A stretch of DNA of 46,429 nt, taken from a virus. Both the position numbers and the translations under genes were made by a program. How positions within the stretch are numbered: the stretch's first letter is position 1; every line of letters starts with the position of its first letter. Location of the stretch: IMG/VR virus record IMGVR_UViG_3300036889_000007, positions 1 through 46,429 of that record. The stretch is one strand, 5' to 3'. Shown here one piece after another: positions 4,245 through 40,256 of the stretch. The notes under the pieces were generated by a model, which was given only the letters and a program-made list of their open reading frames with translations, did not search any database and had not been told where the DNA came from.

Positions 4245-4618
4245 TATAAGTTCTCCACAGTAGCATCGTACTGTTTCCAATCTACATCTAACTCAAGTGC
4301 AAGTAATCGCTCAACACAAGTAGAGAACTGATGCTCACGATAGTAGGGGGCTGCTAGACTATCCCCAGGCTCACTAACATCATTATCCCCTCTAAGAGAT
4401 TCATACTTAATATCAAAGTCATCTACCTGTTCTTGCTGTATCCCTCGGTGTCTACATATAAGACATTCAGCTAATTCGTGAAACGCAACTAGCATCTCAT
4501 ATCGCCAGTCACCCATCTTTGATACTGAGATGGTCAAGTTATCTCCATCCCATTGCCAATCTCCACACGTAGAATAACGTTGCTGGTTGTTAGGTATGAC
4601 CTCAATCGTTACTTTCAT
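4244..4618 (-). CDS. Conserved phage protein with HELAE motif, possible metalloenzyme (124 aa)
   Basis: The central helix reads VAFHELAECLICRHRGI. The HExxE arrangement resembles metal-binding helices of zinc proteases, and similar helices followed by D-F-D occur in hypothetical proteins of many tailed phages. No second metal ligand can be assigned with certainty and no peptidase family is recognised. It overlaps the end of the large internal virion gene by four bases (ATGA) and its stop overlaps the ATP-grasp start, so the three are one translational unit. It could act with the ATP-grasp protein. It is also one of few candidates for a cell-wall-active enzyme, but this is only a guess. Confidence 0.6.
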   Translation of the reverse strand: MKVTIEVIPNNQQRYSTCGDWQWDGDNLTISVSKMGDWRYEMLVAFHELAECLICRHRGIQQEQVDDFDIKYESLRGDNDVSEPGDSLAAPYYREHQFSTCVERLLALELDVDWKQYDATVENL

Positions 4619-9998: not shown

Positions 9999-10522
9999 TA
10001 TGGAGCAAACACCGTTCCCATCCCGCCCATACCAGAGGACGCATTAAACGTACTATCAATACCACTACTACCACCACCAGTGTATCCAGTTGCACTGAGG
10101 TATCCTTGAACACTCTTACTCATGCCACTAAGGAACGTACCAATCCCAGCCACCTGACCTTTCCATGCAGCAACCTTACCGTAGTATTCCTCAAGTGTCG
10201 AGGCTTCTGTACCAGACTGATATATCTCCTCTGCCTGTCTCCCACCACGTCCTGCTGTAGCTGCCATCATAAGTAGTGGAGAGCCTCTAGTAATGTCAAC
10301 ACCTGATGCAGCATAAGCTGTAGCCTGCTTACCAACCAAGGCTGAATACTTCTGCTCATTAGCAACCATGTCATTAGACATGTTGTTAAGATCAACTTGA
10401 GCATTGTAGTCATAGCCTGCTTGCTGTTGCTTACCAGCATCAGCTTCACCCATACCAGAGACTAAGGAGCTTATAATCCCCAGTCCCGAGAGCGCACCAG
10501 ATTGAGTAGTCGGATCACTCAT
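9998..10522 (-). CDS. Internal virion protein, T7 gp14-like (174 aa)
   Basis: Starts with a small Gly/Ser/Ala-rich hydrophobic segment (GLGIISSLVSGMG), then a helical region with AYAASGVDITRGSP, a pattern common in the small gp14-like ejection proteins of podoviruses (SGVxxxxGSPL). It is directly downstream of the tail tubular protein B gene, the usual place of this protein. The Gly/Ser-rich C-terminus has no assigned function. In the family the protein forms a channel in the outer membrane during DNA entry. Confidence 0.75.
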   Translation of the reverse strand: MSDPTTQSGALSGLGIISSLVSGMGEADAGKQQQAGYDYNAQVDLNNMSNDMVANEQKYSALVGKQATAYAASGVDITRGSPLLMMAATAGRGGRQAEEIYQSGTEASTLEEYYGKVAAWKGQVAGIGTFLSGMSKSVQGYLSATGYTGGGSSGIDSTFNASSGMGGMGTVFAP

Positions 10523-10528
10523 ATTATC

Positions 10529-13078
10529 TTAGTCCTGATTATATGACATACGCATTACTAACCCGCGTAAGGTAAATGGAAATGGCTCATCTTGGACAAT
10601 GTAAAAGGTTGATTCATCATCCCAGTCAGCGTCAAGATCACGGGTTATTTCAAAGGTAGACATTGCTGGTTGCTGTCCCATTGTCCCAGGCCCATACACA
10701 ATAGGATACATGTGGTTAAGGTCTGTACCGAACTGACCCCCCATTGATTGATATAAAGACAACGTGGCTCTGTTCAGCTTCTGCTTCATACCTCGTGTAG
10801 TGTTACCTGCTGAACTGAGTACAGGGTTCACAGGTTGTATGGTTGTGCTGTATGGCAACCCTACTGTAATCTGATTACAATAGTAAGGAAATGTCAGGGA
10901 GTCAGATGTAACGATAGTTGGGGGTAGTATCTTAGCTCCATCACCTACAGCAATTACCGTTTGGCCTAGAAGGTAGTACATACCTGTAACTACGTTGGTC
11001 ACGGGGAGGGCTGTACCACCACTGGTGTAAACTCCAAAGGCAGTAGTGTCCATGCCCTGTAGTTGAAACGTACCAGCAACGTAGTCTGTATTGATAACTG
11101 TGTATGCCTCAGTCTTGTCTTGGTTAATCTCAACCATCCCCAAGACATTAGCTATCTGCACAAATGTTCCATTAACAAAGGTCTGCCCAGGAGCAGTAAC
11201 AGTGGGTGGGTTAGTATTACTTATAGCTGTGATAGCAACTGCTGGGCCTAGATTAAGCTGTAAGCCACAATGAACAAAGAAGGCATTGGATAGCTGACCA
11301 AACAATTCCTGTGGCATGAAGTATTCAAGATAGCGCCCGACAGCACCATTGATAGTCCGCTGAACGCTGATGACTACCATGTCCTCTTGGTTCTGTCCAG
11401 TTATTACTGCTACAGATTCAACCTTGCCACCCTCTGATAGCATGTTTACACGGAACCATGCGTACACTTGATCCTGCTTGTTGAACACCAGACCAAGTAG
11501 TTGACCATCTGCTCTAACAGCCCAGAATATCGGATAGGGTTCTGATTGGAATGCTGTCTGAATAATACCAGAACTAGCCGCATCTGTACCAATGGTGATC
11601 TGTCTGTTGAGTCTAGTTAGGTCTGTGTTGTCCCACTGGTTGCTGACAAAGTTATAAGTCAGGAATGTTACTGTCTTAGCCGAGCGAGAGACAAAGATTG
11701 CAGAGTCACCGACTAACTGTGGCTGGAGTCGGGCTACTCCTAGTGTACTTTGCTTAGCAGCATTAACACTAACCTGACTTATTGACGTTCCACCAGGACT
11801 TGAGATAGCCCATATACCACCTGCCGTACCAACTATAAGAGCGTTAGGTGAACCAATCAGGTTAAGTATCTGATCTAACAGTGTAGACACCAGGGTGAAT
11901 TGTACAGCATAGTCATCTTGAGTAGAATCACAAATAAAGTCTGGGTAGTCACCCTGTACGCTACCCCATAGAGTGGTAGGGTTATCGTCAGTACCAGCTA
12001 ACCACAAACGCTGTTGATAGAATGTTCCACAAGCTGGATAGTTACCAGTAGTGTTAAATAGTGCAACTACCGGAACTATAAATCCACCCCCAGTATATGT
12101 TAGCCATTTAGTAGAATCAACTAAGGGAGTTGTTATTAGTGTGCTACCAACAGACTGAGTGGGGGATACTGTATAAGTGCCGAGGCCACCAACACCACCT
12201 AAGAATGCTGTTACTGTAGTACCTGATGTAACTCCTGTTCCTGCTAATAGCATACCAACACTGATCGCACCACCATGTATTAGTGTAACTGTTAGGGTTG
12301 TTCCTGAGATAGCGCCAGTAACTACTGCACCACCATCAGCGGGTGTCAAGTTTATTACGTCGGTATATCCCCCAGAGCTGGCAATAAAGAACTCACCCTC
12401 ATTGAGTTCTACCATACCAGAGCAGCCATTAATGTAGATACGTTCTCCTTCAGTAACACCAATAGCCTCTGCTAGCGAGACTGCACATGGATTAGCTTGC
12501 GTAATGTCAGCTATGGATGTTCCTATACCAGAGAAGCCAACGCCTATAATATCAGAGGTGCCACGATATGGAGGTTCATTATACTGTCCACCTGGAGGAG
12601 ATAAAGTATAAACCCAGTTAGTAGGACTTAGCTGCTCTACACAAGCTGGTGGATGGTTAGGGTGGAATATCCACAGAACGTCAGCACTCTGGGTTGAGCA
12701 ATCAAGCTCAAACAGTTCATTTTGTAGGTATGGTAATCCTGTAATGGTTGCTACATTTACTAGAGTCCATGAGCCGGGGGTAGCTGGCACAAATACAGCA
12801 ATAGCTGTTCCACCATAGAATGCGTTGTTAATGATCCAAAGAATCGCTCCCTGTGTAGTAGAGAACTGAAATGGAACCACTCTGCATGGGTTTGGTGTAG
12901 CACCACCAGCAGCGTAGTATGTTCCAGGCATCTTCTTTGTGCCACCCTCTACCAAGGGTACAGAGTTCTCTAGGGTACGGCAAGCAGACTTATACTTGCT
13001 AATGTCCTCACGATTGAAGATCAGCTCGCTGACTTCACCAGCGTTGAATGTGTTGATGTATGGATAAGCTTTAGGCAT
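10529..13078 (-). CDS. Tail tubular protein B, nozzle (849 aa)
   Basis: The N-terminus (NTFNAGEVSELIFNREDISKY and RTLENSVPLVEGG) is typical of gp12-like nozzle proteins of short tails, which usually begin FxxGExSP..RxDxxKY. Further family features are QRLWLAGT and the Trp-rich propeller segments. Two internal copies of a small beta domain ending GMVE(L/I)N lie near residues 190-245 and 625-675. An extra Gly/Thr-rich domain (about 254-317, SGTTLTVT ... TYTVSPTQSVGS) is inserted after the first copy and is related to one in the 251-residue protein upstream. The start follows the tail tubular protein A stop by one base. Confidence 0.92.
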   Translation of the reverse strand: MPKAYPYINTFNAGEVSELIFNREDISKYKSACRTLENSVPLVEGGTKKMPGTYYAAGGATPNPCRVVPFQFSTTQGAILWIINNAFYGGTAIAVFVPATPGSWTLVNVATITGLPYLQNELFELDCSTQSADVLWIFHPNHPPACVEQLSPTNWVYTLSPPGGQYNEPPYRGTSDIIGVGFSGIGTSIADITQANPCAVSLAEAIGVTEGERIYINGCSGMVELNEGEFFIASSGGYTDVINLTPADGGAVVTGAISGTTLTVTLIHGGAISVGMLLAGTGVTSGTTVTAFLGGVGGLGTYTVSPTQSVGSTLITTPLVDSTKWLTYTGGGFIVPVVALFNTTGNYPACGTFYQQRLWLAGTDDNPTTLWGSVQGDYPDFICDSTQDDYAVQFTLVSTLLDQILNLIGSPNALIVGTAGGIWAISSPGGTSISQVSVNAAKQSTLGVARLQPQLVGDSAIFVSRSAKTVTFLTYNFVSNQWDNTDLTRLNRQITIGTDAASSGIIQTAFQSEPYPIFWAVRADGQLLGLVFNKQDQVYAWFRVNMLSEGGKVESVAVITGQNQEDMVVISVQRTINGAVGRYLEYFMPQELFGQLSNAFFVHCGLQLNLGPAVAITAISNTNPPTVTAPGQTFVNGTFVQIANVLGMVEINQDKTEAYTVINTDYVAGTFQLQGMDTTAFGVYTSGGTALPVTNVVTGMYYLLGQTVIAVGDGAKILPPTIVTSDSLTFPYYCNQITVGLPYSTTIQPVNPVLSSAGNTTRGMKQKLNRATLSLYQSMGGQFGTDLNHMYPIVYGPGTMGQQPAMSTFEITRDLDADWDDESTFYIVQDEPFPFTLRGLVMRMSYNQD

Positions 13079-13840
13079 TTACCACCTGCGACCTCCCCAA
13101 CCACTTACCCATCTACCAGCACGTTCCCAACTCTCTGAGCCTGCCTCGTCCTGCTGATAGTCCATACACTCATTCTGAGCTTCAGCACTGTTAAGGCTAT
13201 CACGATATAACTCAAGCATACTCTGACCTTTCTGCTTATCCTCAGTGATAGCAACACTGACCTCAGCAGCTAGGCGATATGCTAGGCAGGTTACAAACCC
13301 AGGCATGAGTTGTGTGTAGTCAGTGATGAGTTGAATGTAAGTTATTGCTACAGGAGCTTGCCATCCTCCATAGTTGGTTAGGGCATACTTCCCAGACGGG
13401 AATGGTGGTGGATAAGGTACTGGTGGTGCTGGTGGAACTACCAACCACCCAGCAGTTAGTGTCTCAATCTTGTAGTCATAATCATTAGGCCAGAATGGAG
13501 GGTCTTGACGGTTGTACCAACCCATACCTTCCGGCCCATACATCCAAGCATAGTTACGGTTGGCTTGACGCTTAGTAGGGCGCACGAAGCGTAAGAAGTC
13601 TGCTGGTAGTGCCCAAGCAAACTTATAGGTGTAGAGTGGAGTAACTGAGCTTAGTACAAGCTGCTGCCGAGTCTTAGCAAACTTCCAATCACGTTCAGAT
13701 AGTACCTCTTGGAATATAGCATCCCAGACATCTAGAACCTTAATAGCATTGGGGCTGTTTTCATTCAGATCAGTAATCTGACCACGAGCACCTATCTTAC
13801 CAAGAGCCAAGTTTGCGATACTGGCAGCACTATAATTCAT
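13079..13840 (-). CDS. Tail tubular protein A, adaptor (253 aa)
   Basis: The opening ASIANLALGKIGARGQITDLNE is the hallmark of gp11-like adaptor proteins (xxINxAL..LG...I.SL.E), and SERDWKFAKTRQQL plus YKFAWALPADFLRFVRP match the family core. In T7-like virions twelve copies connect portal and nozzle. A Pro-rich loop (VVPPAPPVPYPPPFP) near residue 135-150 is unusual. It overlaps the upstream zinc-finger gene by four bases and abuts tail tubular protein B, as expected for co-assembled parts. Confidence 0.92.
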   Translation of the reverse strand: MNYSAASIANLALGKIGARGQITDLNENSPNAIKVLDVWDAIFQEVLSERDWKFAKTRQQLVLSSVTPLYTYKFAWALPADFLRFVRPTKRQANRNYAWMYGPEGMGWYNRQDPPFWPNDYDYKIETLTAGWLVVPPAPPVPYPPPFPSGKYALTNYGGWQAPVAITYIQLITDYTQLMPGFVTCLAYRLAAEVSVAITEDKQKGQSMLELYRDSLNSAEAQNECMDYQQDEAGSESWERAGRWVSGWGGRRW

Positions 13841-16286: not shown

Positions 16287-17033
16287 CTACCTCTTTGGGG
16301 GCTTAGGACTCTTGCTATAATCAAAGCCAGCAGCATCACTGGATTTGGAAGTAGAGTGCCCACCCTGTGGTGAAGTATCCTCTCCGGTCAAGGCAGACAT
16401 CTTGAGAAGGAATCGAATCATACCGTAACGATTGGTAGCTGTCTCACTAGAGAACAGCTTGTCAAAATCCCCTTCTCCATGTTTCTGCCATACTCGTTTG
16501 GCCAGTTCTACGTTGGTATCAAACTTGTCGCCCATCTCGGTTCTGAGCTTCTGTTCAGCAGTAGTCATCTCGGTCTTGAGTGCAGCATTGTGAGCTTCAA
16601 CCATCCTCTGCATCTGCCCATTGAACTGCGTACTCAGTGCCTTAGCCTGAACTTTAGTTAAGCCCAGACCATGAAACTGTCCCTTCCAGAAGTTCGTCCA
16701 CTCAGGGGCGTTCTTGTCCTCACCATCAAATTCATATTCGCTGGCTTGTTTTGGTCGGCCTAAAGCATCGTAGTAAGTGTTACGATCCTCGTCCGTCGCA
16801 CCATCCGGTAGTTTAGGTATTGAGTCACCCAGCTTCTTTTCCAGATCACCTACCTTGGCTTTCGTTTCAATAGCACTCTTGGCAAAGTCACCAACAGTCT
16901 TGAACGTAGCAAGGTCAGTGTTCTGTTTGAGATCGTCGGGTAGCCCAGCACGCCATCCCAAGGATGTAGTGTCAGGGGTAGTAGGAGCAGCTACGTTAGT
17001 AGTCTGCGTTGCGTCTAGCACTGCTTCAGGCAT
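16287..17033 (-). CDS. Capsid scaffolding protein (248 aa)
   Basis: Located immediately upstream of the capsid gene. The motif GWRAGLPDDLKQN near residue 26 and GRPKQASEYEFD near residue 92 are recurrent in phage scaffolds of this kind. The middle is helical and charged (KTEMTTAEQKLRTEMGDKFD), and the C-terminus is basic (KSPKPPKR), suited to bind the coat N-arm. It acts inside the procapsid and is usually lost or cleaved before DNA packaging. Confidence 0.85.
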   Translation of the reverse strand: MPEAVLDATQTTNVAAPTTPDTTSLGWRAGLPDDLKQNTDLATFKTVGDFAKSAIETKAKVGDLEKKLGDSIPKLPDGATDEDRNTYYDALGRPKQASEYEFDGEDKNAPEWTNFWKGQFHGLGLTKVQAKALSTQFNGQMQRMVEAHNAALKTEMTTAEQKLRTEMGDKFDTNVELAKRVWQKHGEGDFDKLFSSETATNRYGMIRFLLKMSALTGEDTSPQGGHSTSKSSDAAGFDYSKSPKPPKR

Positions 17034-18566: not shown

Positions 18567-18754
18567 TATGATCTCACTAACTTCTTTCTTTTCTGCCTCA
18601 ACCTATACCTTTGCATTGCGGGAATATCAAGTTTCGCAATGTCGTCATAATATATTGGAACACTACCATACCCTATTTCACGCTCAGGCTTCTCAGGTAT
18701 ATAAACAGATTCTGCCCACAACAACAAGGGATCAAAGTATACTGTCAGTCTCAT
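18566..18754 (-). CDS. Small hypothetical protein downstream of portal (62 aa)
   Basis: The start at 18754 overlaps the portal stop (ATGA) and the end overlaps the next start, so it is translated as part of the operon. Aromatic and acidic N-terminus (YFDPLLLWAESVYIPEKPE), strongly basic C-terminus (RYRLRQKRKKLVRS). The YYDDI tetrad also occurs at the N-terminus of the beta-rich head protein downstream. No family recognised. Confidence 0.6.
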   Translation of the reverse strand: MRLTVYFDPLLLWAESVYIPEKPEREIGYGSVPIYYDDIAKLDIPAMQRYRLRQKRKKLVRS

Positions 18755-20643
18755 TGTGCTGGTGCTCCTTCCTCACCACCACCTCCAGCTCCACTCATAA
18801 TCTTCTCAACCATGCTACCTGCCTCTGGTGCCTTACTCAATGATTGAGCCGCTCTAGCTACCTTGGGTAGATTCTCCGCAGTCCTATCCTGTTGCATCAT
18901 CTTGTTACGCTGATCGCGGATAGCTGCAATCTGACGGGGTTCACGGTAGCATGAAGCTGGGAATGATACTGCCTCTAATACTTCAAGAGCAGCCTTGTCA
19001 TAGTCTACTACATCTATAGAGGTAGGGTTGTTCTGTGCTATCTGCGTGAGGAGTTGTAGACCAGTTGTGATAGCTCTAACCTTTGTAAGCCTAGTCTGAG
19101 CTTGGGCTAACGGGCCAAGGTATTGTATTTCAACTGGGCCATGCTCACTCTGAAGTAATATGTCAGGTGGCTGCGGAATACGACCAGCCATTGCTTCGAT
19201 GCTATAGACGCGAGAGATGAGTGGGTCAAATGCCTCTGACTGTAGGTTGCCTACACGGGTGCCGAGGATAGCTGCCTTCTCACCTTGAAGCTCCTGTACT
19301 TGCTCAGTTACCATACGTGATTGGTTGCCCTGTGCAGATAGTCCAGACATCATCATAAACACATCTGTGTGGAAGTGTTGGTTAATGATCTTAGTTACTC
19401 GGTCTTGGAACTCTATGTTAAAGGGGAGTTGGTTGACCCCTGTGTATAGTGGCATAGGAGCACGGGTACGAATGTCGCCCCTGTTTGATTCAAGGTAAGT
19501 GATACCAGCAGGGCCTCTTTGTATCGCCCCACGTAGATCGGAGTAAGCGATAAGAGGTGGCTCTGCTGCTTGATGCGCTGTAATAAGATTCGTTCGGCCC
19601 ATCTGGTTAGCAAGTCCGATAGATACGAAGGCATCATGTGCTGGCCCCCTCCCGTATACTTCATCATCATTACTACGCCACCTCCATGCAATCATGGGCA
19701 TTGAATCATAGCCCCCCTCAGCTAGCATAACTACACCAGCGTCAGTAGAGGTGTTAGTAGCACGCACCTTAGTTTCAAGTATCTTCCCACCCTTACGGTA
19801 GACCCATGCTGACTCCCAGCGTTTAGCACGAGCATCCATGCGGGTAGTATCGAAGTCCTGTCGTGGGTAGATAGCGTGTAGAATCTCACGCTCCTCATAC
19901 ATGTTCTGCTTGTAGGCATTATACCAGTTGTCGTCTACAGCCTTCATCTTATCCTCGCCAAACTTCTGTACGAATTGGCGTAGAGTCATCTTGTAGACAC
20001 GATAGAGAGTATCAACCTTGCCCCACTGGTTTTCTGCTATAAAGCATTCGCGGTAGTGGGGTACGGTGAATACTATTGAGCCTTCAGTAATAGCCTCCTC
20101 TACTTGGAGATAAGCTGTACCACATGTAGCTCCATCACTAATGAACTCAGTTACTATATCGTAGAAGTTAGAACGGTTGAAGGCTGAGTACATTACTGTT
20201 TGGCAGTCTTGGAGCCATTGCTGTACTTGAGGATATTCGTCTACTCGTCGTCCTGACCAGGAACGCATAGCAGAGGAGCGAGGAAAGTTGAACTTTCCGG
20301 GGAGTTCCAAAGCGAACCAGGGCTGGTTTCGAGAGCACAAATATCCAACCATCCCATCCACAAGCATGTTTCTTGCGAGCATTGCTGAGTCATCAAATAC
20401 CTCTTGGCCTGTTTGCTGCCCTGGCCATAGTTCGGTGTCTTGGATAAAGCGTCGTCCATGATTGACATACATGATTATGTTATCTATGGCTGGTTCCCAA
20501 GGCAACCTTTGATCTGCTAATACCATTAAATATTTTTGACAATCTTTGGCTTTCTCGTCTGGGGTAGGATTACCTAAAGTAGATTGAGGCAACCCCGAAA
20601 CATTTCCATACTGACGAGATGTAGATGTCATTGGATAAGGCAT
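18751..20643 (-). CDS. Portal, head-to-tail connector protein (630 aa)
   Basis: Matches the podovirus head-tail connector family in size and landmarks: an N-terminal helix with WE.A....I.Y..H.RRF, the segment VDGMVGYLCSRNQPWFALEL, FNRSNFYDIVTEFISDGATCGTAY, and RWRSNDDEVYGRGPAHDAF in the clip/wing region, then DVFMMMSGLSAQGNQSRMVTEQVQE in the crown. The C-terminus is Gly/Ala-rich and disordered. Twelve copies form the DNA gate of the capsid. It starts two bases after the stop of the endonuclease VII-like gene. Confidence 0.95.
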   Translation of the reverse strand: MPYPMTSTSRQYGNVSGLPQSTLGNPTPDEKAKDCQKYLMVLADQRLPWEPAIDNIIMYVNHGRRFIQDTELWPGQQTGQEVFDDSAMLARNMLVDGMVGYLCSRNQPWFALELPGKFNFPRSSAMRSWSGRRVDEYPQVQQWLQDCQTVMYSAFNRSNFYDIVTEFISDGATCGTAYLQVEEAITEGSIVFTVPHYRECFIAENQWGKVDTLYRVYKMTLRQFVQKFGEDKMKAVDDNWYNAYKQNMYEEREILHAIYPRQDFDTTRMDARAKRWESAWVYRKGGKILETKVRATNTSTDAGVVMLAEGGYDSMPMIAWRWRSNDDEVYGRGPAHDAFVSIGLANQMGRTNLITAHQAAEPPLIAYSDLRGAIQRGPAGITYLESNRGDIRTRAPMPLYTGVNQLPFNIEFQDRVTKIINQHFHTDVFMMMSGLSAQGNQSRMVTEQVQELQGEKAAILGTRVGNLQSEAFDPLISRVYSIEAMAGRIPQPPDILLQSEHGPVEIQYLGPLAQAQTRLTKVRAITTGLQLLTQIAQNNPTSIDVVDYDKAALEVLEAVSFPASCYREPRQIAAIRDQRNKMMQQDRTAENLPKVARAAQSLSKAPEAGSMVEKIMSGAGGGGEEGAPAQ

Positions 20644-20644
20644 G

Positions 20645-21034
20645 TTAATTGCTCGTTACCCTTCCTAGATAAGCAATAGCTGCACAAAGTACATTAGGGT
20701 TATCCTTAGAATGACCTAACAACAAGTTGCAAGAATGGCAAAGAATCCCACGCACTTTATTAGTGTTGTGATCATGGTCAACATTCCAGTCTCTATTACC
20801 TAGATTCTCACCACAACAGATTGCACACTTGTTTCCCTGGGATAACAAAAGAGCATCGTACTCTTCCGTAGTAATTCCATATAGCCGTTTGCGTACAATG
20901 CCCTTCTGATAGGACTTAAACTCCTCAGGGTGTGCTGCTCGCCACCTATAGGTAGCGGCCCTAACCCTATCTGGGTGTGCTTGGCGATACTTCTGAACAG
21001 CAATCCTGTTCCGCTCTTTGGTGTCACTCATCAT
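20645..21034 (-). CDS. Endonuclease VII-like HNH nuclease (129 aa)
   Basis: The core YGITTEEYDALLLSQGNKC and CAICCGE, then NVDHDHNTNKVRG, ILCHSC and NLLLGHSKDN, is the recombination endonuclease VII signature: a zinc site (C70, C73, C99, C102) around the DHDH catalytic stretch (residues 86-89). T4 gp49 of this family resolves branched DNA before packaging; smaller members often behave as free-standing homing or packaging-linked HNH nucleases. The N-terminal 50 residues are basic and helical. The start overlaps the upstream stop as TAATG and the portal starts two bases after its end, so it is seamless in the operon. Confidence 0.88.
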   Translation of the reverse strand: MMSDTKERNRIAVQKYRQAHPDRVRAATYRWRAAHPEEFKSYQKGIVRKRLYGITTEEYDALLLSQGNKCAICCGENLGNRDWNVDHDHNTNKVRGILCHSCNLLLGHSKDNPNVLCAAIAYLGRVTSN

Positions 21035-21785: not shown

Positions 21786-22240
21786 GCCAAGCTCCGTAGG
21801 TAAACATTGCTTGTGTTACGATAACGATCTACGTTCGTAGCTAATAGATGGTCAAACTGGCTACCTGCTGGAGCACTGTAAAGGAAGGCAATACACCCTT
21901 TACTCTTTGCATAGCTCTCTATGAACAGTAGAAGCCTTCCACCAATGTCACCATGTCTGTGATCTTTAGAGAGGAAGATGCTCTCTGTAGTAGCAACCCT
22001 CTTTCCATAGTGGGGAAGGGTGTAGATCAACACAACAGCAAAGCCAATTAGCAGCACACTATCATATACTCCAAACGCCTGTAACCCACCTGTGGCCTCC
22101 ATTACGTCGTATGTTGAGCATTGTGGGTTAATTGACCCAAGCTCAGTGATAGAACATTCAGCAGCATACTCGTCCAATAGAACCTTTATGTTTGGCTCTT
22201 GGAACAGCACAGAGCATGTTGTTGGACGAATGATAGCCAT
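21782..22240 (-). CDS. GNAT-family acetyltransferase-like protein (152 aa)
   Basis: The GNAT fold is suggested by AFGVYDSVLLIGFAVVLIYTLPHYGK (central strands), IFLSKDHRHGDIGGRLLLFIESYAKSKG (acetyl-CoA loop, R-x-x-G-x-I-G) and a C-terminal strand GCIAFLYSA. It would transfer an acetyl group to an amine. Such genes often sit between terminase and portal in podoviruses, with unknown targets. It overlaps the large terminase stop by one base. Confidence 0.75.
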   Translation of the reverse strand: MAIIRPTTCSVLFQEPNIKVLLDEYAAECSITELGSINPQCSTYDVMEATGGLQAFGVYDSVLLIGFAVVLIYTLPHYGKRVATTESIFLSKDHRHGDIGGRLLLFIESYAKSKGCIAFLYSAPAGSQFDHLLATNVDRYRNTSNVYLRSLA

Positions 22241-23967
22241 TATCTCATCACCAGTCCATAAGTAAGCGGGTTGTAAGCCTCTACAGGAGGCATGTGCATT
22301 AGCACCTCGTCAAGCTCAGGTGATCGGTAAACTGGTTGCTCCATAGCTACATATCTTACTGTATCTGCAAAATCTTTGAAGTCCTGCTCGGGCTGATCAC
22401 TACCCTCCTTCCATCTGTAGTTCCACATATCCTGGGTCGGCCCGCGCAGTCCCGAGCACCCATCACGAGCAAACATCATGCCTGGGAACTCTCGATTCTG
22501 TACAGTGCTGTAGTGGGGTTGAAGATATTGCTTCACTAGCTTATGGCCTAGAGCTATGTCACCTGGAGCTGAGTGGGAGAGTCTGATGTGCTTAATGCTA
22601 GCCTTATCAAGTTCCTCTTCCCATGAGGTTGTTTCGTAGGCTGTGTTGACTGTCTTAGTACCAAACTTAGCATCAAGGATAACCATTGCTGGTTCTTTGT
22701 AATCGTGTTTAGCACGCATCACACGCACAGAGCGTGCTATGGTATCTATGTTACCACTGGCTAGGAGATAGGTATAGAAGTAAATCCGGTTTGCAGGTCT
22801 ACCATTGATGGTGATCTCTTCAGGCGACACTGCACCGAAAAGCCAGCGGGTTGGACGTGCATCGTGAGGATCGACACATTCGATACGCATCCAGCCACGT
22901 GGAATGGTAAAGTCAGCATAGAGATGGGCTTCACGATCCAACTCTTTGTAGACCATCCCGCTAAGGTGCTTCCACTTACCTTCTTCACGAGCTTCCCTTT
23001 CATCTTGGTCAGTGATGGTCTTGAGGTAGTTGTCTATGCCAGCCCTAGGCATGAAGCCCATAACCTTACCACAGTTAGGGCATTTACCTTTGGGTCGTAC
23101 TTGTCCAGGCTCAAGGTTCTCTGGATGATTCTCTGGGACAGTAACGTTACAGTCACGGCACCAGTCTTGGCAGTTCTCCCATACACTACATCTAAATATC
23201 GCTATCTCATCATCCTCTCCATTGTTGTTGAATGCATTGAGGGAGAGCATGTCATAGATGTAGGGCTCCTTGAGGGGAGTCATGGTGAGCCATGAGGGAG
23301 CGTTAGCAGCCATCTTACCACGAGATGCAGCATTCCAGATTGGCTGTGGTGGAGGCTCATCCCAGTGTTGCCAGTCAGAGAGGACACCTTCAAAGGATTC
23401 AGCAGGCTGGACATACGATCTGAAGTGTGCTGTAGAGCCACACTTGTTGCCCAGGTAGTCATAGGTTAGGGTGACTGACTTGACTGAGCCATCACTATAG
23501 CGTGTCCACTCAGGCTCACAGTGAGAGGGTATGAACTCTCTGAACTGAGGTTCGATACGTTGGATAAGGTTCTGTCCAGCTACCTCACAACCTAGCAAGC
23601 CATTGTTAGGAACCTTTATCTTTATGCGGTAGTCAGGATCATCCTTCTTTAGCCAAGGACGGAAGCCCATCATGTGAGCGATGTCCTCAGCAATGCCTAG
23701 TGTGGTTTTGCCTGATTGGTTAGCACCTTCAAAGAGCCTAATGCGGGGCATACGACCATACTTGTTCTTGATGCGTATGAAGTCATCCTGGATTTGAGTG
23801 AGCTTGAGGAAGAAAAGTTTGTAATGCTCATGTGCTGCAACCTCAACATTAGCTAGGGTCTCAGGCTTCTTAGGATCAAAGCCAGAGAGGATTGAGGCTA
23901 TAGCGGAGTCAGTAGGGGATGCAGATGGTGCAGCAGTGGTACTCGTAGGTGAGCGTCTACGCTTCAT
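22240..23967 (-). CDS. terL: Terminase large subunit (575 aa)
   Basis: Walker A is G81-ANQSGKT (residues 81-88), Walker B with catalytic Glu is in LSDWQHWDEP (D203, E204). The nuclease domain has acidic residues in CVDPHD (D366), VILDAKFG (D432) and FADTVRY (D535). It packages DNA into the procapsid at the portal. A Cys cluster between the domains (C266, C270, C273, C296, C299) forms a zinc-ribbon-like insertion. The start overlaps the upstream stop. Confidence 0.95.
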   Translation of the reverse strand: MKRRRSPTSTTAAPSASPTDSAIASILSGFDPKKPETLANVEVAAHEHYKLFFLKLTQIQDDFIRIKNKYGRMPRIRLFEGANQSGKTTLGIAEDIAHMMGFRPWLKKDDPDYRIKIKVPNNGLLGCEVAGQNLIQRIEPQFREFIPSHCEPEWTRYSDGSVKSVTLTYDYLGNKCGSTAHFRSYVQPAESFEGVLSDWQHWDEPPPQPIWNAASRGKMAANAPSWLTMTPLKEPYIYDMLSLNAFNNNGEDDEIAIFRCSVWENCQDWCRDCNVTVPENHPENLEPGQVRPKGKCPNCGKVMGFMPRAGIDNYLKTITDQDEREAREEGKWKHLSGMVYKELDREAHLYADFTIPRGWMRIECVDPHDARPTRWLFGAVSPEEITINGRPANRIYFYTYLLASGNIDTIARSVRVMRAKHDYKEPAMVILDAKFGTKTVNTAYETTSWEEELDKASIKHIRLSHSAPGDIALGHKLVKQYLQPHYSTVQNREFPGMMFARDGCSGLRGPTQDMWNYRWKEGSDQPEQDFKDFADTVRYVAMEQPVYRSPELDEVLMHMPPVEAYNPLTYGLVMR

Positions 23968-24339: not shown

Positions 24340-24445
24340 CTTCACACTCCACTTCTTCTGGTACACATAAGAGCTCTTGCCATTGGTAAGGAGACACTGT
24401 GATCTGCACTGTGCCATCCGCACGAACTAGGATTACCATGTCCAT
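24326..24445 (-). CDS. 39-residue acidic peptide gene
   Basis: ATG at 24445 lies six bases after the stop of the membrane protein gene and the frame ends with TAA at 24326, overlapping the next start by 14 bases. The peptide begins MDMVILVRADG and ends in a run of acidic residues (VPEEVECEDDGA). The ribosome binding site is weak, so translation is probably coupled to the upstream gene. Accepted because it fills the only gap in a run of overlapping genes. Confidence 0.45.
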   Translation of the reverse strand: MDMVILVRADGTVQITVSPYQWQELLCVPEEVECEDDGA

Positions 24446-24451
24446 GCTTAC

Positions 24452-24619
24452 TCAGTGTTTCAGCCACTGCATACACAGCATGAACACAAGTACAACAGAG
24501 AGCAGCCACCTTACGATGCTATAGCCCGATGGCTTCCAAGGATCAGGAACTCCAGGCCAAGGTACAGCCAGAGCAACAATCAACGAGATGATGATAATAG
24601 TTAGTTCAATGGGACTCAT
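24452..24619 (-). CDS. Two-helix membrane protein, class II holin candidate (55 aa)
   Basis: The start at 24619 is fixed by AAAAAGGAG at seven bases; upstream in-frame codons would add a poor N-terminus. Two hydrophobic helices (LTIIIISLIVALAV and IVRWLLSVVLVFMLCM) flank a short Pro/Gly loop, ending QWLKH. T7 also places a small holin next to its terminase genes (gp17.5 before gp18), and class II holins have two such helices. The evidence is topology and position only. Confidence 0.55.
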   Translation of the reverse strand: MSPIELTIIIISLIVALAVPWPGVPDPWKPSGYSIVRWLLSVVLVFMLCMQWLKH

Positions 24620-24894
24620 TGAGACTCCTTTTTGTTGGTAAACTTGAGTGCCTAGGTCGGTATTCACATGACTCCCACCCCACTCTAAGGGGGGCTCCGG
24701 TAGGCACTAAGTAATTCTTATTGGTCTGATTGCTCATAGTAGCCACTATTTAAGCAAACCCCCCCTCCCCCCACTACTGAAGGTGACCTATACTACACTC
24801 TACTACACACTCTACTATACTACTGGGCTACTTGCTTACTAGCTCTGTGCTTGCATCCTTTATATGTGTGCTCGTACATACTAGCTCCGGGCTA
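24620..24894. other. Gene-free segment below the small terminase gene, G-rich and repetitive
   Basis: 275 bases without a gene in an otherwise overlapping operon. On the minus strand it has GGGGGGAGGGGGGG, repeated TAGTAG and GTAGTA units around 24790-24835, and several CTAG tetramers. No clear promoter or T-tailed hairpin is visible. As it directly follows the small terminase candidate it is a candidate for a packaging (pac/cos) signal. Confidence 0.45.
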
Positions 24895-25350
24895 CTACTC
24901 TTGCTCTCTTACTCTCAATGCCTCTAGTACATCTACTAAAGCATGTACATGTATGCTAGTAGGTTGTCCTCGCATTACTTGTATCTTGTCCTGCATTATA
25001 GCAAAGCCTGTTATGAGTGATACAGCAGGAGTTTTATCTAGCTTGTCTTGAGTAATAGATGCTAGTAGTCTATGCTGTATTACCTCACATATACTAGCCT
25101 TATCTCCACGAAACTCAGCTAACTCCTCAGTAGTTATGTCCTTAAGGTAATCCTTAAGAACTTGAGACACATTACTCTCAGTACACCCTACGCGTCGGGA
25201 GATAGCAGCCTGTGATAATTCAGGATATTTTTCATACAGATAGCGGATTTCAGCAGCCCGGTCGCCCTTAGCTGGGGCTGGCCCCAAGATCACGCCTGCC
25301 AGCATGCCAGGATCGGCTTGCACATCGGGCGATTGTGGGTTGGTGCTCAC
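24895..25350 (-). CDS. Small terminase subunit candidate, HTH protein (151 aa)
   Basis: Residues 46-67 (SQAAISRRVGCTESNVSQVLK) form a helix-turn-helix. The C-terminal half, with TPAVSLITGFAIMQDKIQVMRGQPT followed by a helix, resembles the phrase (S...A...GI..DK...LRG..T) in phage HTH proteins annotated as small terminase subunits. It would recognise DNA for packaging upstream of the large subunit. The start is GTG at 25350 with no Shine-Dalgarno; a TTGACA -35 box at 25385-25380 puts the transcript start almost at the GTG, so the message may be leaderless. It could also serve as a regulator of the divergent region. Confidence 0.6.
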   Translation of the reverse strand: MSTNPQSPDVQADPGMLAGVILGPAPAKGDRAAEIRYLYEKYPELSQAAISRRVGCTESNVSQVLKDYLKDITTEELAEFRGDKASICEVIQHRLLASITQDKLDKTPAVSLITGFAIMQDKIQVMRGQPTSIHVHALVDVLEALRVREQE

Positions 25351-25356
25351 GGCTCG

Positions 25357-25385
25357 AGTAATTCACAGATCACCAGGATTGTCAA
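25357..25385 (-). promoter_or_regulatory. Putative sigma70 promoter for the late arm
   Basis: On the minus strand TTGACA (25385-25380), a 17-base spacer, then AATTAC (25362-25357), a weak -10. The GTG of the small terminase candidate is only seven bases further on, which implies a leaderless or nearly leaderless transcript. Confidence 0.4.
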
Positions 25386-25406
25386 GCACAAACTGCAATA
25401 TAGCAT

Positions 25407-25422
25407 TGTTCCACGTGGAACA
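25407..25422. promoter_or_regulatory. parS-like 16-bp perfect palindrome
   Basis: The sequence TGTTCCACGTGGAACA is a perfect 16-bp inverted repeat with the CACGTG core and GTT/AAC arms of the chromosomal ParB-binding site parS (consensus TGTTTCACGTGAAACA; the C/G variant is used by several bacteria). It lies 22 bp upstream of the -35 box of the late-arm promoter. There is no parA or parB gene in the window, so a host ParB would have to bind it. Confidence 0.8.
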
Positions 25423-25643
25423 TTACATAGGTAAGTGCTTTGTAATCAATAGTTTATATATGCTAGTAATAGCTTTACAAATCTTTACAATTCTATGCTT
25501 GACATGCTACTGTGTTAGTGCAACAGTGTGATTGCCACTATCCCAGACTTAATTGCTAGGGTGCAGATGGTGCAGTCGAGGATGGGCTAACAGTAGTGGT
25601 TAACGGTATCAGCTACAGAGCTGGGCAGGCATAAGGAGTAACA

Positions 25644-25805
25644 ATGTCAAACAGTAACTATCGTAAGTGCACCCGATGTGGACATGAGTGGATTCGCAAA
25701 GGTGGTGGGATCAGCTATAGATTGCACCCACTTGAACCCAAGCAATGTCCCAAGTGCCGTAGCGAGAAGTGGCAGCAAGCACAAGCACCAAAGGAGGAGT
25801 TATGA
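25644..25805 (+). CDS. Zinc-ribbon micro-protein (53 aa)
   Basis: ATG at 25644 follows AAGGAG. The peptide has two zinc knuckles, CTRCGHEW and CPKCRSEKW, spaced as a zinc ribbon with an intervening basic beta segment. It is the first gene of the early arm. The stop TGA overlaps the next ATG (ATGA), and the ribosome site of that next gene (AAGGAGG) is inside its end. Small zinc ribbons of this form are common in early phage operons; target unknown. Confidence 0.7.
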   Translation: MSNSNYRKCTRCGHEWIRKGGGISYRLHPLEPKQCPKCRSEKWQQAQAPKEEL

Positions 25806-26011
25806 CAGAGGCAGCGCGTTATACAGTGTTCACCCGTACATGGTGGAGAAACAATCCAAGCTGGCCCCGTGGCTTGGAACCATGCGCCGGTCGCAGATAC
25901 ATCCATGAGCGCAATCTTACCTATGAACAGGCATTGCGCTATTGTGAGCAGTGGAACAGCACACACAAGCCAGGGAGACTTAGCCGCAAGGCAGAGTTTA
26001 CACAGCAGTAA
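25802..26011 (+). CDS. Conserved phage hypothetical (RYTVFTRTWW family, 69 aa)
   Basis: Start at the ATG that overlaps the upstream stop, preceded by AAAGGAGG. The protein reads RYTVFTRTWWRNN, LEPCAGRRY, then EQALRYCEQWNSTHKPGRLSRKAEF. I recognise this arrangement from hypothetical proteins of other tailed phages, where the N-terminal strand and the KPGRLSRKAEF tail are conserved. Function is not known. Confidence 0.75.
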   Translation: MTEAARYTVFTRTWWRNNPSWPRGLEPCAGRRYIHERNLTYEQALRYCEQWNSTHKPGRLSRKAEFTQQ

Positions 26012-26066
26012 GTAACCGGCAGCGGAGATGCTGTAAACGTGACTCAGATCACGAAAGGGAGATGAA

Positions 26067-26267
26067 ATGAGCAAGAAAGATTTTATCGCACTGGCAGACG
26101 CAATCGGGGAGCACAACAGGATTTACATTGGCTCAGAGTTTAGTGCAGGGCAGCTTTACACGTTAGCAGACTTCTGTCAATCGCAGAACAGCAACTTCAA
26201 ACGTGACCGCTGGCTTGGATACATCGCCGGCGAGTGTGGCCCGAACGGTGGAGCAATCAAGAGCTAA
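26067..26267 (+). CDS. Conserved phage hypothetical (66 aa)
   Basis: ATG after GGGAGATGAA. The sequence KKDFIALADAIGEHN, LADFCQSQNSNFKRDRWLGYIAGECGPNGG follows a pattern seen in many phages (DF..LA..L, LA.FC...NP.F....F..Y..G.CGP.GG). It is a small helical protein ending in a Gly-rich tail, of unknown role. Confidence 0.75.
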   Translation: MSKKDFIALADAIGEHNRIYIGSEFSAGQLYTLADFCQSQNSNFKRDRWLGYIAGECGPNGGAIKS

Positions 26268-26279
26268 CTTTTGACGGTT

Positions 26280-26299
26280 CCGCTTCATACCATGAGCGG
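26280..26299 (+). terminator. Short hairpin between early genes
   Basis: CCGCTTCAT and ATGAGCGG pair around an ACC loop with one bulged T. The octamer CGGTTCCG is also repeated directly at 26275 and 26297. No T run follows, so it may attenuate rather than terminate transcription or protect the mRNA. Confidence 0.35.
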
Positions 26300-26328
26300 T
26301 TCCGTGAGCAGTTAGAATATTGAAGGGT

Positions 26329-26439
26329 ATGATGCAAAAGACTACAGTAATATTTCTCACATTACTGGTAGGAGCATTGCTACTAGCGGGATGCTACTAC
26401 CTAGCGGTGACATACGCAATGGCGGAGGTGCAGTGGTGA
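26329..26439 (+). CDS. Small hydrophobic peptide with lipobox-like LLAGC (36 aa)
   Basis: Two ATG codons at 26329 and 26332 follow AAGGG. A hydrophobic helix (TVIFLTLLVGALLLAGC) ends in LLAGC, a good lipobox, followed by a short Tyr-rich tail. It may be a lipoprotein or a single-pass membrane peptide. The TGA overlaps the next gene's GTG, so it is coupled to it. Probably a real gene because it fills the gap in the chain, but function is unknown. Confidence 0.5.
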   Translation: MMQKTTVIFLTLLVGALLLAGCYYLAVTYAMAEVQW

Positions 26440-37109: not shown

Positions 37110-40100
37110 ATGTCATTCCAACGTATGCCAGTAGACTACTGCCTAGACCGCTCTCTACCTGAGATGGAGAAGTGGATGGCTGATCTAGGCTACACACCTG
37201 ATATGCCTCTAGCAGTAGACATAGAGACCCCTGAGACTGACAAGATCAATGAGGAGGATAGTGATGATCCTGAAAAAACGAGCTATACAATTATTCGTTG
37301 TGGTTTCAGCTTTAGACATGGGACTGCTGCAAGTTATCCTTGGGTCGAACCCTTCATTACATTCACGCGCAATCTGCTCTGCGCTGCTCATACTGTCATC
37401 CTTCATAATGGTGGCTTTGATAGGCCGCGACTTGAACGAGCGGGATGTCAAATAACAGGCAGAGTCTATGACACCATGTGGTGTCTTAACTACGATACCC
37501 AAGTAAAGCTCTCAGATGGTTCCTACAAGAAAATTGGTGAGGTTGTAGAGAACAAGCTAGATGTGGAGCTTCTTACATACGAGCGTGGTTGTATTGTACC
37601 TACAAGGATAGTTGCCTATCATGCAAATGCTGTGCTAGGGCAGCGTTGGGTCAAGATTCATGCACAAGGTACTCGGTTTCCCATATTTTGTACACCCGAC
37701 CATAAGATATATACGATGTCTGGGTGGGTAGAGGCAAAGGATATTGTAGTTGGGGATCAGGTTCCGTTACCTCATTATGGGTCAGAGTGGCTGATTCATG
37801 GAACTATCCTGGGGGATGCTTGGGTATCCCCTAACGGAGATTTACGGCTTCTTCATAGCACCATCCAACGAGATTGGATCAATGCTAAAGCACGCCACAT
37901 GCACGCTAATGTTTACGAGAGTAAAGCCCCAACTGGTAAGGGAACAAACCCTAATCTATATGCAAGCATTAGTGTGCCGTGTCAGTGGCGCTCTCTTTTC
38001 TACCCCGATGGTAAGAAGGTATTTATCCCACCCCCACACATTGCCTCTATTGCTGTATGGTACGGTGACAATGGTAACTGGCACCAGAACAATGACAACA
38101 ACTTAGGTGCTCCACGCTTCTGTATAGCAGGTTTCTCAGCCACGAATAAGGCTGCTATACGAGATTGGCTGGCACAGGAGTTTGATGGGGCGCGGCTACA
38201 ACAAAAGGATACGATTGTAGCTATCAATACTAAAAGGGGGCGAATAAAGTTCTTTGAAGCTATAGCTCCTTGGATGCACCCAAGCATGGAAAGGAAGCTG
38301 CCTAAGTGTTTTCGAGGGTACTATAATGGATGGCTTGAGAGGGACTATGCACAATGGGCACCTGTAAAGAGCGTAAGTGAATACCTACCAAGAACTAGAG
38401 AGAGACAGATGGTGAGGTATTGTGTTTCTGTTGCAAATGAGTCACAGTCCTTCTTTACTGAAGGTGGGCTTGTACACAATTGCTTTCATTTTCTACAAAG
38501 CGACTTACCCAAATCCTTGGAGTTCATTGCACCCTTTTATACAGACTTGGCTCCCTGGAAACATCTTAGTCAAGCAGAACCTGCTCTATACAATGCAACT
38601 GACAATGATGCCACTATACGATGCTATTATGCTATGCGCGACTGGCTGATCCGGCAGGGCCGCTGGGAACGCTTCACGCGCCACTGTAGCGACACGGCTA
38701 CGATCTTGGGGGAAATGTCCACCGCTGGGGTTCTCATTGACGTGGAGGCCCGCAGCACCCTCCAAAATGGCCTTCACGCTGAGATTACAGGAGTGTGCCC
38801 TGGAGTTGCAGAGGGAATTGAGCATAATACGCTAGCAAAACCTTGCATGGCGTGTCAGAACATAGCGAGACCCGATTTCATAGCGCTCAATACCTCAATC
38901 CAAGCTGCGATCCCCCGTGAGCTGCGGCCGATCAAAGAACTCAAAACTGAACGAACGCTAAAGGAGCTACCCGAGGACGAACGATCTGATTGGGAACCAA
39001 CCAATGTCAAGTGTGAGTGCAAGCGTCTACGAAAGTCTACTGGACGTTGCCTGCTATGCGATGGATCGGGGGTTGTTACTCACTATAGGAAACGACTACC
39101 TTTTAATTGGAACTCCACCGACCAGTGCCAAGACCTTGCACGTCATTATGGATTCACCATCCCTAAGAAACGGGGTGAAGATAGAGAAGCCCTCGAAGCT
39201 AAGACACTAAGAAAGTTCGGTAAGCGTAAGCCAGTATTCCTTGACATCTGGAATGCTCGTAAGCGCCATAAGTTAATTTCTACCTATGATTGGGTTTTAG
39301 ACAGTGAGGGTAGGGTACACACTAAGTTTGGCTTCTGGCCTAGTACATGGAGGAAGGCGAGTCGTCAGCCAAACTTGATGACCATTCCAGCCCGTAATGA
39401 GCTTGCTGCTGCCTTTAAGAGAACTATTATAGCAGCTCCTGGAAATGTACTTATAAATGCTGACTCATCTGCTATTGAAGCAGTAATTATGGGCTACACT
39501 ATAAATAGTCCTAGGATGGTTGCTCTTGCTAAGGCTGGTATCCACGACTGGTTTATGAGCCACGTAAGAGCAAATAAGGAAGGTGGAGTAGGGATTGATG
39601 CTGGTTTACCATTTGAGCTGTTGCGTAAGGCATGTAAAGAAGCTAAAGCATACGATGCTAGTCTACCGTCAGCTAGGCAGCTTCGAGATGCTATGAAGCG
39701 TACTATACATGGTACAGATTATGGGCTTACACCTTTTGGAATGGCTGATGAATACCCAGATGAGTTTCCATCTGTCAAGATTGCTACAGAATATCAGGAG
39801 ATGCTATTTCAGTTACTTCCTGAACTAAAGATAGGGATACGTAATATACGTGAGCGAGCGGATCGTCAGACCTTCCTTGACAACCATTACCAGTACCGAC
39901 ATTACTTCTATGCAGTCACGAAGTGGAATAGTAACTATCAGAAATGGGACTTAGGTACAGATGCTAAACGCTGCATAGCTTTTGGGCCACAGAGTGATGC
40001 TTCAGCTATTCAAACAGAGGACTTACTAACACTTGCAGCAGACCCTTTAATTCGTCCTATGCTTAGGCTTATCGTTCACGATTCCCACGTTCTTGAATGT

Positions 40101-40256
40101 CCTATAGATATGGTAGACTATGTCTGTGGGGGGTTGCATAGCACAATGTCTCGCCCACGTCCTGAGCTTGGTGGACTAGAGATAGGAGTAGAAATAAAAT
40201 ATGGTATAAACCTACAAGATACTCAATTATGGGTGCCGAAGCCTAGCGGGAACTAG
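37110..40256 (+). CDS. polA: Family A DNA polymerase with 3'-5' exonuclease, intein-containing (1048 aa precursor, 715 aa spliced)
   Basis: Exonuclease motifs: LAVDIET (D37, E39), HNGGFD (N100, D104) and YNATD (Y494, D498). Polymerase motif A is NADSSAIEA (D785), motif B is RDAMKRTIHGTDYG (R859, K863, Y871) and motif C is VHDSHV (H990, D991). His867 occupies the place of E. coli Phe762 and T7 Tyr526, and Ser992 replaces the usual Glu of HDE. A four-to-six-Cys cluster (C579, C582, C635, C637, C647, C650) may form a zinc ribbon between the domains. A 333-residue intein (125-457) lies between motifs Exo II and Exo III. The segment 38641-38760 has 65% GC against 39% for 39421-39540, which suggests a mosaic history. 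Confidence 0.93.
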   Translation: MSFQRMPVDYCLDRSLPEMEKWMADLGYTPDMPLAVDIETPETDKINEEDSDDPEKTSYTIIRCGFSFRHGTAASYPWVEPFITFTRNLLCAAHTVILHNGGFDRPRLERAGCQITGRVYDTMWCLNYDTQVKLSDGSYKKIGEVVENKLDVELLTYERGCIVPTRIVAYHANAVLGQRWVKIHAQGTRFPIFCTPDHKIYTMSGWVEAKDIVVGDQVPLPHYGSEWLIHGTILGDAWVSPNGDLRLLHSTIQRDWINAKARHMHANVYESKAPTGKGTNPNLYASISVPCQWRSLFYPDGKKVFIPPPHIASIAVWYGDNGNWHQNNDNNLGAPRFCIAGFSATNKAAIRDWLAQEFDGARLQQKDTIVAINTKRGRIKFFEAIAPWMHPSMERKLPKCFRGYYNGWLERDYAQWAPVKSVSEYLPRTRERQMVRYCVSVANESQSFFTEGGLVHNCFHFLQSDLPKSLEFIAPFYTDLAPWKHLSQAEPALYNATDNDATIRCYYAMRDWLIRQGRWERFTRHCSDTATILGEMSTAGVLIDVEARSTLQNGLHAEITGVCPGVAEGIEHNTLAKPCMACQNIARPDFIALNTSIQAAIPRELRPIKELKTERTLKELPEDERSDWEPTNVKCECKRLRKSTGRCLLCDGSGVVTHYRKRLPFNWNSTDQCQDLARHYGFTIPKKRGEDREALEAKTLRKFGKRKPVFLDIWNARKRHKLISTYDWVLDSEGRVHTKFGFWPSTWRKASRQPNLMTIPARNELAAAFKRTIIAAPGNVLINADSSAIEAVIMGYTINSPRMVALAKAGIHDWFMSHVRANKEGGVGIDAGLPFELLRKACKEAKAYDASLPSARQLRDAMKRTIHGTDYGLTPFGMADEYPDEFPSVKIATEYQEMLFQLLPELKIGIRNIRERADRQTFLDNHYQYRHYFYAVTKWNSNYQKWDLGTDAKRCIAFGPQSDASAIQTEDLLTLAADPLIRPMLRLIVHDSHVLECPIDMVDYVCGGLHSTMSRPRPELGGLEIGVEIKYGINLQDTQLWVPKPSGN
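37482..38480 (+). mobile_element. Intein with LAGLIDADG homing endonuclease in polA (333 aa)
   Basis: Splice junctions are clear: N-extein ...DTMW, intein starting C125-LNYDTQVKLSDG (block A) and ending GLVHN457, C-extein starting C458-FHFLQ. Block B is FCTPDHKIYT with the TxxH residues (T195, H198), and block F/G is YCVSVANESQSFF ... GGLVHNC. The two LAGLIDADG helices are LIHGTILGDAW (D236) and SIAVWYGDNGNW (D320), both with the catalytic Asp, so the homing endonuclease may be active. Removal restores a continuous exonuclease domain. Confidence 0.95.

Follow-up and report, generated by a model that had tools for sequence, protein, structure and literature searches.

A chromosome-type parS palindrome in a phage without a detected ParB: a proposed borrowed host centromere

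Introduction

Chromosomal ParB is reported to load at parS sites and to slide along the DNA with CTP (PMC8367383, PMC12704722). In Pseudomonas aeruginosa, parS2 and parS3 are described as two of the four sites occupied by ParB in ChIP-seq, and a single parS as sufficient to sustain segregation (PMC4368675, PMC5098823); when a single parS2 is located opposite oriC, the reported outcome is that it does not suffice for accurate segregation (PMC4368675). The Myxococcus xanthus parS consensus is given as TGTTCCACGTGGAACG (PMC7022226, PMC3899335), and the verified parS sites presented in these reports vary at positions 1/16 and 5/12 (PMC4368675, PMC5098823, PMC7022226, PMC3899335). A mobile element is also reported to imitate such sites: SGI1 carries parS mimics that are bound by the ParB of an IncC plasmid, and this ParB stabilises SGI1 (PMC10954446). 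For phages without par genes, no report of a host-type parS was found in searches of the open-licence PMC literature.

The window, that is, the whole stretch of DNA that was analysed, is a 46,429-base virus contig that carries the 16-bp palindrome TGTTCCACGTGGAACA. A preliminary description made from the sequence had called it an orphan parS-like site in a divergent control region. The match to a bacterial ParB site that was claimed there proves to be exact, since TGTTCCACGTGGAACA is letter for letter P. aeruginosa parS2 and parS3 as published (PMC4368675, PMC5098823); from the M. xanthus consensus it differs in the last base. The palindrome is thus identical to, or one base away from, verified ParB sites as described in those sources. 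We consider it very probably a host ParB site.

Results

The phage and the surroundings of the palindrome

The ends of the window are identical over 127 bp (1–127 and 46303–46429), and it is therefore most likely a complete assembly. Identical ends were also seen in relatives (127 bp in G030, 123 bp in G031 and G148, 74 bp in G032). By its major capsid protein (GP7 family), portal and packaging genes the phage is near the epsilon15-like podoviruses. No close cultured phage was found: the identity of the terminase large subunit (TerL) was at most 29.7%, and for the portal the top match had 28.7%, with none of the 30 matches listed above 30.4%. The region 24800–26000 gave no nucleotide match, and no tRNA was found in the window. 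When genome contigs were scanned by TerL alignment, one contig matched, from a Neptuniibacter MAG, which is uninformative as a host clue. In this 47-kb contig (NZ_JAAEQH010000214) TerL is split across the contig ends, so that the contig probably represents an entire phage genome in free form; the two parts of it that were examined (L206, L207) contain no parS-type site.

A search of the window with the integrase family PF00589 alone returned nothing. ParB_N (PF02195) is absent from the window record, and Pfam scans of 50 of the 152 window ORFs with at least 60 aa showed no ParA or ParB, in agreement with the absence of parA and parB stated earlier. Among the other genes (Table 1), the 151-aa protein encoded to the left of the palindrome could, at a guess, be the small terminase, and the LAGLIDADG stretch in the family A DNA polymerase is perhaps an intein.

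The palindrome is perfect and occurs at a single place in the window when up to three mismatches are allowed, dinucleotide shuffles of the window giving a mean of 0.14 places at the same threshold; the chance of one in a hundred thousand that had been quoted holds for a single 16-mer fixed beforehand and a sequence of 46 kb. The site falls in a gap, with the start of leftward ORF 24895–25350 on its left and the rightward early genes on its right. It is found in two further assemblies (L122 and L123), which are identical to the window at 331 of 331 surrounding bases, and is therefore no assembly slip. The late promoter that had been placed 22 bp away is less clear: a TTGACA hexamer is indeed near, at 21 bp, but a promoter scan of 24400–26400 gave two sites against 3.4 in shuffles, and the hexamer (25385–25380) was not among them. 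TTGACA is also present upstream of the orthologous gene in L124, G004 and G030, and the hexamer beside the site may be a promoter even though the scan lends it no support.

The direct repeat of TTGTAAAG also precedes the same gene in G030 and, with a change in one copy, in G006; L128 has an altered form too. We regard this repeat as a candidate phage operator, a control element that would be common to the relatives, unlike the parS site. That is, the shared element at this place appears to be the TTGTAAAG repeat, and the parS site seems to be a later addition within the lineage of the window. Half-sites of the form GTTCCAC/GTTTCAC number 17 in the window against a Markov mean of 11.0 and a largest value of 19.

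Table 1. Positions of the parS-type sites and of the genes and elements discussed in the text
Feature	Record	Position	Strand	Remarks
parS-type palindrome TGTTCCACGTGGAACA, at which host ParB is proposed to load	window	25407–25422	none	sequence identity with P. aeruginosa parS2/parS3 (PMC4368675, PMC5098823)
TTGACA hexamer, possible −35 box of leftward (late) transcripts	window	25380–25385	−	read from sequence
direct repeat TTGTAAAG-N2-TTGTAAAG	window	25473–25490	−	upstream of helix-turn-helix gene 24895–25350
151-aa protein, first gene left of site	window	24895–25350	−	weak helix-turn-helix Pfam matches below cut-off, no PHROG; orthologues in relatives
terminase large subunit (TerL)	window	22240–23967	−	phrog_2; family collected with TerL
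recombination endonuclease VII	window	20645–21034	−	
portal/head-tail connector	window	18751–20643	−	orthologue in L062, L420 and L422 has exact parS inside the gene
1207-aa late protein	window	4615–8238	−	orthologue frames in G155 and G142 hold the site
family A DNA polymerase ORF, 1048 aa	window	37110–40256	+	LAGLIDADG stretch at residues ~228–398
site	G006			near contig end, beyond end of 8220–9998 orthologue; between genes as far as visible
site TGTTCCACGTGCAACA	G010			171 bp upstream of TerL match
site TGTTTCACGTGGAACA	G016, G031			between orthologues of 13079–13840 and 10529–13078
exact site	L062, L420, L422			inside portal
two exact copies of site	G155			in open frame of 4615–8238 orthologue; one 31 bases beyond aligned part, perhaps before true start
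site TGTTCCACGTGGAACT	G160			just after end of TerL match
site CGTTCCACGTGGAACA	G142			in open frame of 4615–8238 orthologue, beyond aligned part
palindrome TATTTCACGTGAAATA	L147 (G026)	1654–1669		shortly upstream of TerL; two mismatches to TGTTNCACGTGNAACA, uncounted
tandem C-armed/T-armed parS	L049; L071; L099; L108; L109	310–349; 3372–3411; 14–52; 4504–4543; 5089–5128		

Recurrence at different places in related phages

Relatives were collected by TerL, which gave 36 loci, and then 49 together with L062 through a TerL alignment (best 80 of 130). Hence 86 records (36 + 50) were examined beside the window; many of those without the site are fragments, in which absence is uninformative. At up to one mismatch to TGTTNCACGTGNAACA, the site was found in 12 of the 86 relatives (6 of 36 and 6 of 50, the latter from the best 80 of 130) in addition to the window. 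Two-mismatch matches in eight more records, six of the 36 and two of the 50 (G012, G013, G015, G019, G026, G034, G147 and G163), were not counted. Such matches are at about chance level (3.8 places expected), and three of the eight are one sequence. The palindrome TATTTCACGTGAAATA of L147 (Table 1) is perhaps a divergent parS. On the TerL tree (86 of 87 rows) the carriers make up eight separate lineages. Nine label changes are seen on the tree, and eight lineages were counted since two fragments, L141 and L143, start within TerL and so could not include the site; likewise L062, L420 and L422, being of the same species and 99.9% identical, were taken as one lineage and not three. In the latter three records the endonuclease VII orthologue is located between TerL and portal, on the opposite strand to both. 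The variants of all four one-mismatch lineages (G010, G016/G031, G142 and G160) are at positions 1/16 and 5/12, at which verified parS sites vary too; the uncounted L147 palindrome is a counter-case.

At the place that the palindrome occupies in the window, the site is present only in the window's close group (L122 and L123). In L124, whose TerL shares 92% identity with that of the window, the DNA at this place is unrelated and the site is missing, and neither G030 (complete) nor G004 (a 21-kb fragment), both with a TerL of about 80% identity, has a site within two mismatches of TGTTNCACGTGNAACA. The comparison with relatives that had been proposed as a check thus has a divided outcome. The stress laid on the divergent region and the late promoter does not stand, since the site is missing at that place in the close relatives L124, G030 and G004, whereas the general claim of a host-type parS survives, since seven other lineages carry the site elsewhere (Table 1) and its presence there is not due to chance (see below). 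Among the family genomes with terminal repeats, two of five have the site (the window and G031, but not G030, G032 and G148), and the trait is therefore optional. ParB_N was found in none of 37 family records, the window included, and in none of 50 further family records over the cut-off, with one sub-threshold match in G169; many records in both sets are fragments.

A lone site in one genome could be a post-hoc find. In the DNA of the 87 family records (1,182,950 bases examined, some records in part), the real 16-mer was present in exact form in eight records and with up to one mismatch in 13, with none added at two mismatches, whereas the chance expectation for this DNA is 0.013 places. Of 399 permuted palindromes sought in the same DNA, none was present in exact form and one was present in a single record with one mismatch; none of 19 palindromes that keep the CACGTG core was found. 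The site was absent from 50 unrelated viral records (1.58 Mb; 50 of the 54 matched by one control palindrome), against 12 of 86 relatives (Fisher p 0.004), and the reversed pattern was found in neither the 86 relatives nor the 50 unrelated records. With eight lineages set against 0.013 expected places, and no exact match from 399 permuted palindromes, a chance palindrome is an exceedingly improbable reading; family recurrence and permuted-palindrome controls together lead us to reject a chance origin.

Occurrence in viral contigs at large and in cultured phages

In IMG/VR, the exact site occurs in at least 120 stretches and the T-armed form of parS also in at least 120, compared with 12, 10 and 54 stretches for three control palindromes. 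The control with 54 stretches has the same arms as the site, so that the database-wide enrichment is possibly only about twofold by count. After clustering of the flanks of the matches listed, the exact site was intergenic in 35 of 97 clusters against 10.8 expected, and the T-armed form in 39 of 103 against 9.7 expected (119 loci of 120 stretches); the same-arms control was between genes in just 1 of 39 clusters and the other two controls in 2 of 8 and 1 of 6, the calls being made by crude ORF tiling, such that the proportions count and not the exact values. When 50 of the 120 listed hit records were searched whole, 11 had at least two sites at up to one mismatch and 9 at least two exact sites, with five sites in G111, while the reversed pattern was present in 0 of these 50. 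ParB_N was detected in 1 of 50 listed hit records tested (a different 50 from those of the multi-site count). This census of the listed matches suggests that a parS without a ParB gene in the record is a wider trait of viral contigs and not a quirk of the window, some IMG/VR contigs being short fragments or possibly holding host DNA beside prophages. Lack of integrase was considered as a mark of phages with an orphan parS: an integrase was present in 1 of the 50 hit records examined, compared with 2 of 22 controls (Fisher p 0.22).

Several arrangements with more than one site were seen. Five exact parS copies are found within 6.1 kb (4324–10457) of the 28.9-kb viral contig L105, and five related viral contigs have a C-armed and a T-armed parS in tandem, 7–8 bp apart (Table 1).

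Among 24 cultured phages, picked by matches or by accession, a one-mismatch match was present in three (HTVC027P, HTVC023P and phiKZ) and none in the other 21. Pelagibacter phage HTVC027P carries CGTTTCACGTGAAACA at 16412–16427, between gp31 and gp32, and is the only one of the 24 with the full 14-bp palindromic core. The matches in HTVC023P, where the CACGTG core is broken, and in phiKZ, where the arms are unequal, were taken as chance; phiKZ, with its asymmetric one-mismatch match, is the only one with a match among nine P. aeruginosa phages. The survey of cultured phages therefore indicates that the trait is patchy, with nothing tying it to P. aeruginosa.

Discussion

A borrowed host centromere as the preferred reading

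The sequence identity of the palindrome, its non-chance recurrence in eight lineages, the lack of any ParB found and the freedom of its position are established by the analysis. Our preferred reading, which we consider reasonably probable, is that the palindrome is a true parS, at which the chromosomal ParB clamp of the host would load onto a phage without a detected ParB, and that it serves partition or positioning. Host ParB-CTP would load on the phage parS and slide over the neighbouring phage DNA, such that an infecting or carried phage genome could be handled like the host origin region: ParA would act on it, SMC might be loaded onto it, and it would be positioned and distributed when the cell divides. 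Repeated gain of the site at different places across lineages suggests that the entire phage genome, and not the adjoining gene, is its most likely target. If the palindrome is indeed a host ParB site, partition or positioning has roughly an even chance of being its role, regional silencing of late genes would be a rather unlikely one, and a decoy a quite unlikely one. With SGI1 as the closest precedent, we prefer partition or positioning of an unintegrated genome; we infer both this benefit and the binding of ParB in the real host. Nothing that was seen points directly to a carrier state.

Since the site of the window belongs to a divergent control region and the adjoining gene gives a weak helix-turn-helix match, the site could also be an operator for some other phage or host DNA-binding protein that reads the same palindrome. 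Yet copies of the site occur in unrelated positions, some of them within genes, and such changes of position disfavour a local operator and favour an effect on the whole genome. In addition, the helix-turn-helix gene has orthologues in relatives that have the site elsewhere or not at all, the element common to relatives at that place is a different one (the TTGTAAAG repeat), and the variation of the site follows the parS pattern. We therefore regard an operator as improbable, and as a general role that of late-promoter operator is rejected, as the site is not conserved in that position.

Two other readings accept ParB as the ligand. ParB could be a copy-number timer: loaded at one site, it would slide over 10–20 kb and repress the late (structural) module of a single incoming genome, until it is shared out as the copies multiply and the late genes are turned on. 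The placed family sites are in or beside the late module, strong ParB enrichment is reported over more than 20 kb around the four P. aeruginosa parS sites (PMC5098823), and ParB is described as repressing promoters beside parS3 and parS4 (PMC5521831, PMC7022226). The apparent bias in position must be read with care, however, as the relatives were collected through TerL and most of the contigs are thus mainly late DNA, and the sites in genomes with terminal repeats, those of the window and G031, are too few to show a bias; moreover, in several species few or no genes near parS are reported to respond to loss of ParB (PMC7022226). A timer is therefore unlikely in our view. Alternatively, replicating phage genomes could draw ParB off the host origin by titration, and segregation or cell-cycle control in the host would be disturbed. 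One site per genome would become many on replication, position would be irrelevant, as is observed, and SGI1 is reported to destabilise its helper plasmid through extra parS-like copies (PMC10954446). A titration device should, however, carry arrays of sites, whereas the family carriers have one copy and G155 two, which makes a decoy very doubtful.

Returning to partition or positioning through host ParB, a wider proposal is that a broad class of non-integrating phages carries host-type centromeres but no par genes and hitches onto host chromosome segregation, with repeated gain because one 16-bp sequence anywhere would suffice. We put this forward tentatively, as a possibility somewhat short of an even chance. 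To our knowledge, the persistence of integrase-less phages in dividing hosts is poorly understood. If the proposal is right, mimicry that connects them to the host ParABS (perhaps SMC) would be a simple and testable route by which such phages persist; the phages would also be naturally occurring tools for the study of ParB in uncultured hosts, with the form of the site usable as a host clue.

Comparison with known systems

The chromosomal parS2 and parS3 of P. aeruginosa have the same sequence as the site described here, and the chromosomal parS of M. xanthus is off by one end base; both are reported from bacteria with their own parAB (PMC4368675, PMC5098823, PMC7022226, PMC3899335), whereas here the carrier is a phage for which no ParB was detected. 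SGI1 is likewise a mobile element with mimics of the parS of another replicon, whose ParB it uses for its stability, but it is an integrative element that uses a plasmid ParABS, as was shown by experiment (PMC10954446), whereas the present case concerns a phage and the host chromosome and is read from sequence. Mycobacteriophage RedRock (PMC7157519), cyanophage Mic1 (PMC7156551), P1, N15 and staphylococcal phage Lacachita are likewise phages tied to ParB-type partition, several of them without integrase. According to these descriptions, however, they encode ParB, mostly together with ParA (Lacachita has ParB alone; PMC10286716), unlike the window, and the parS sequences given for RedRock and Mic1 are of another kind, while the site of the window is of the host-chromosome type. 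In the P22 carrier state, the episome is reported to pass to one sibling only, and the parS used there is a label inserted by the authors (PMC3573128); nevertheless, with its unintegrated phage genome in dividing cells, it represents the kind of situation where borrowing a centromere would be of benefit.
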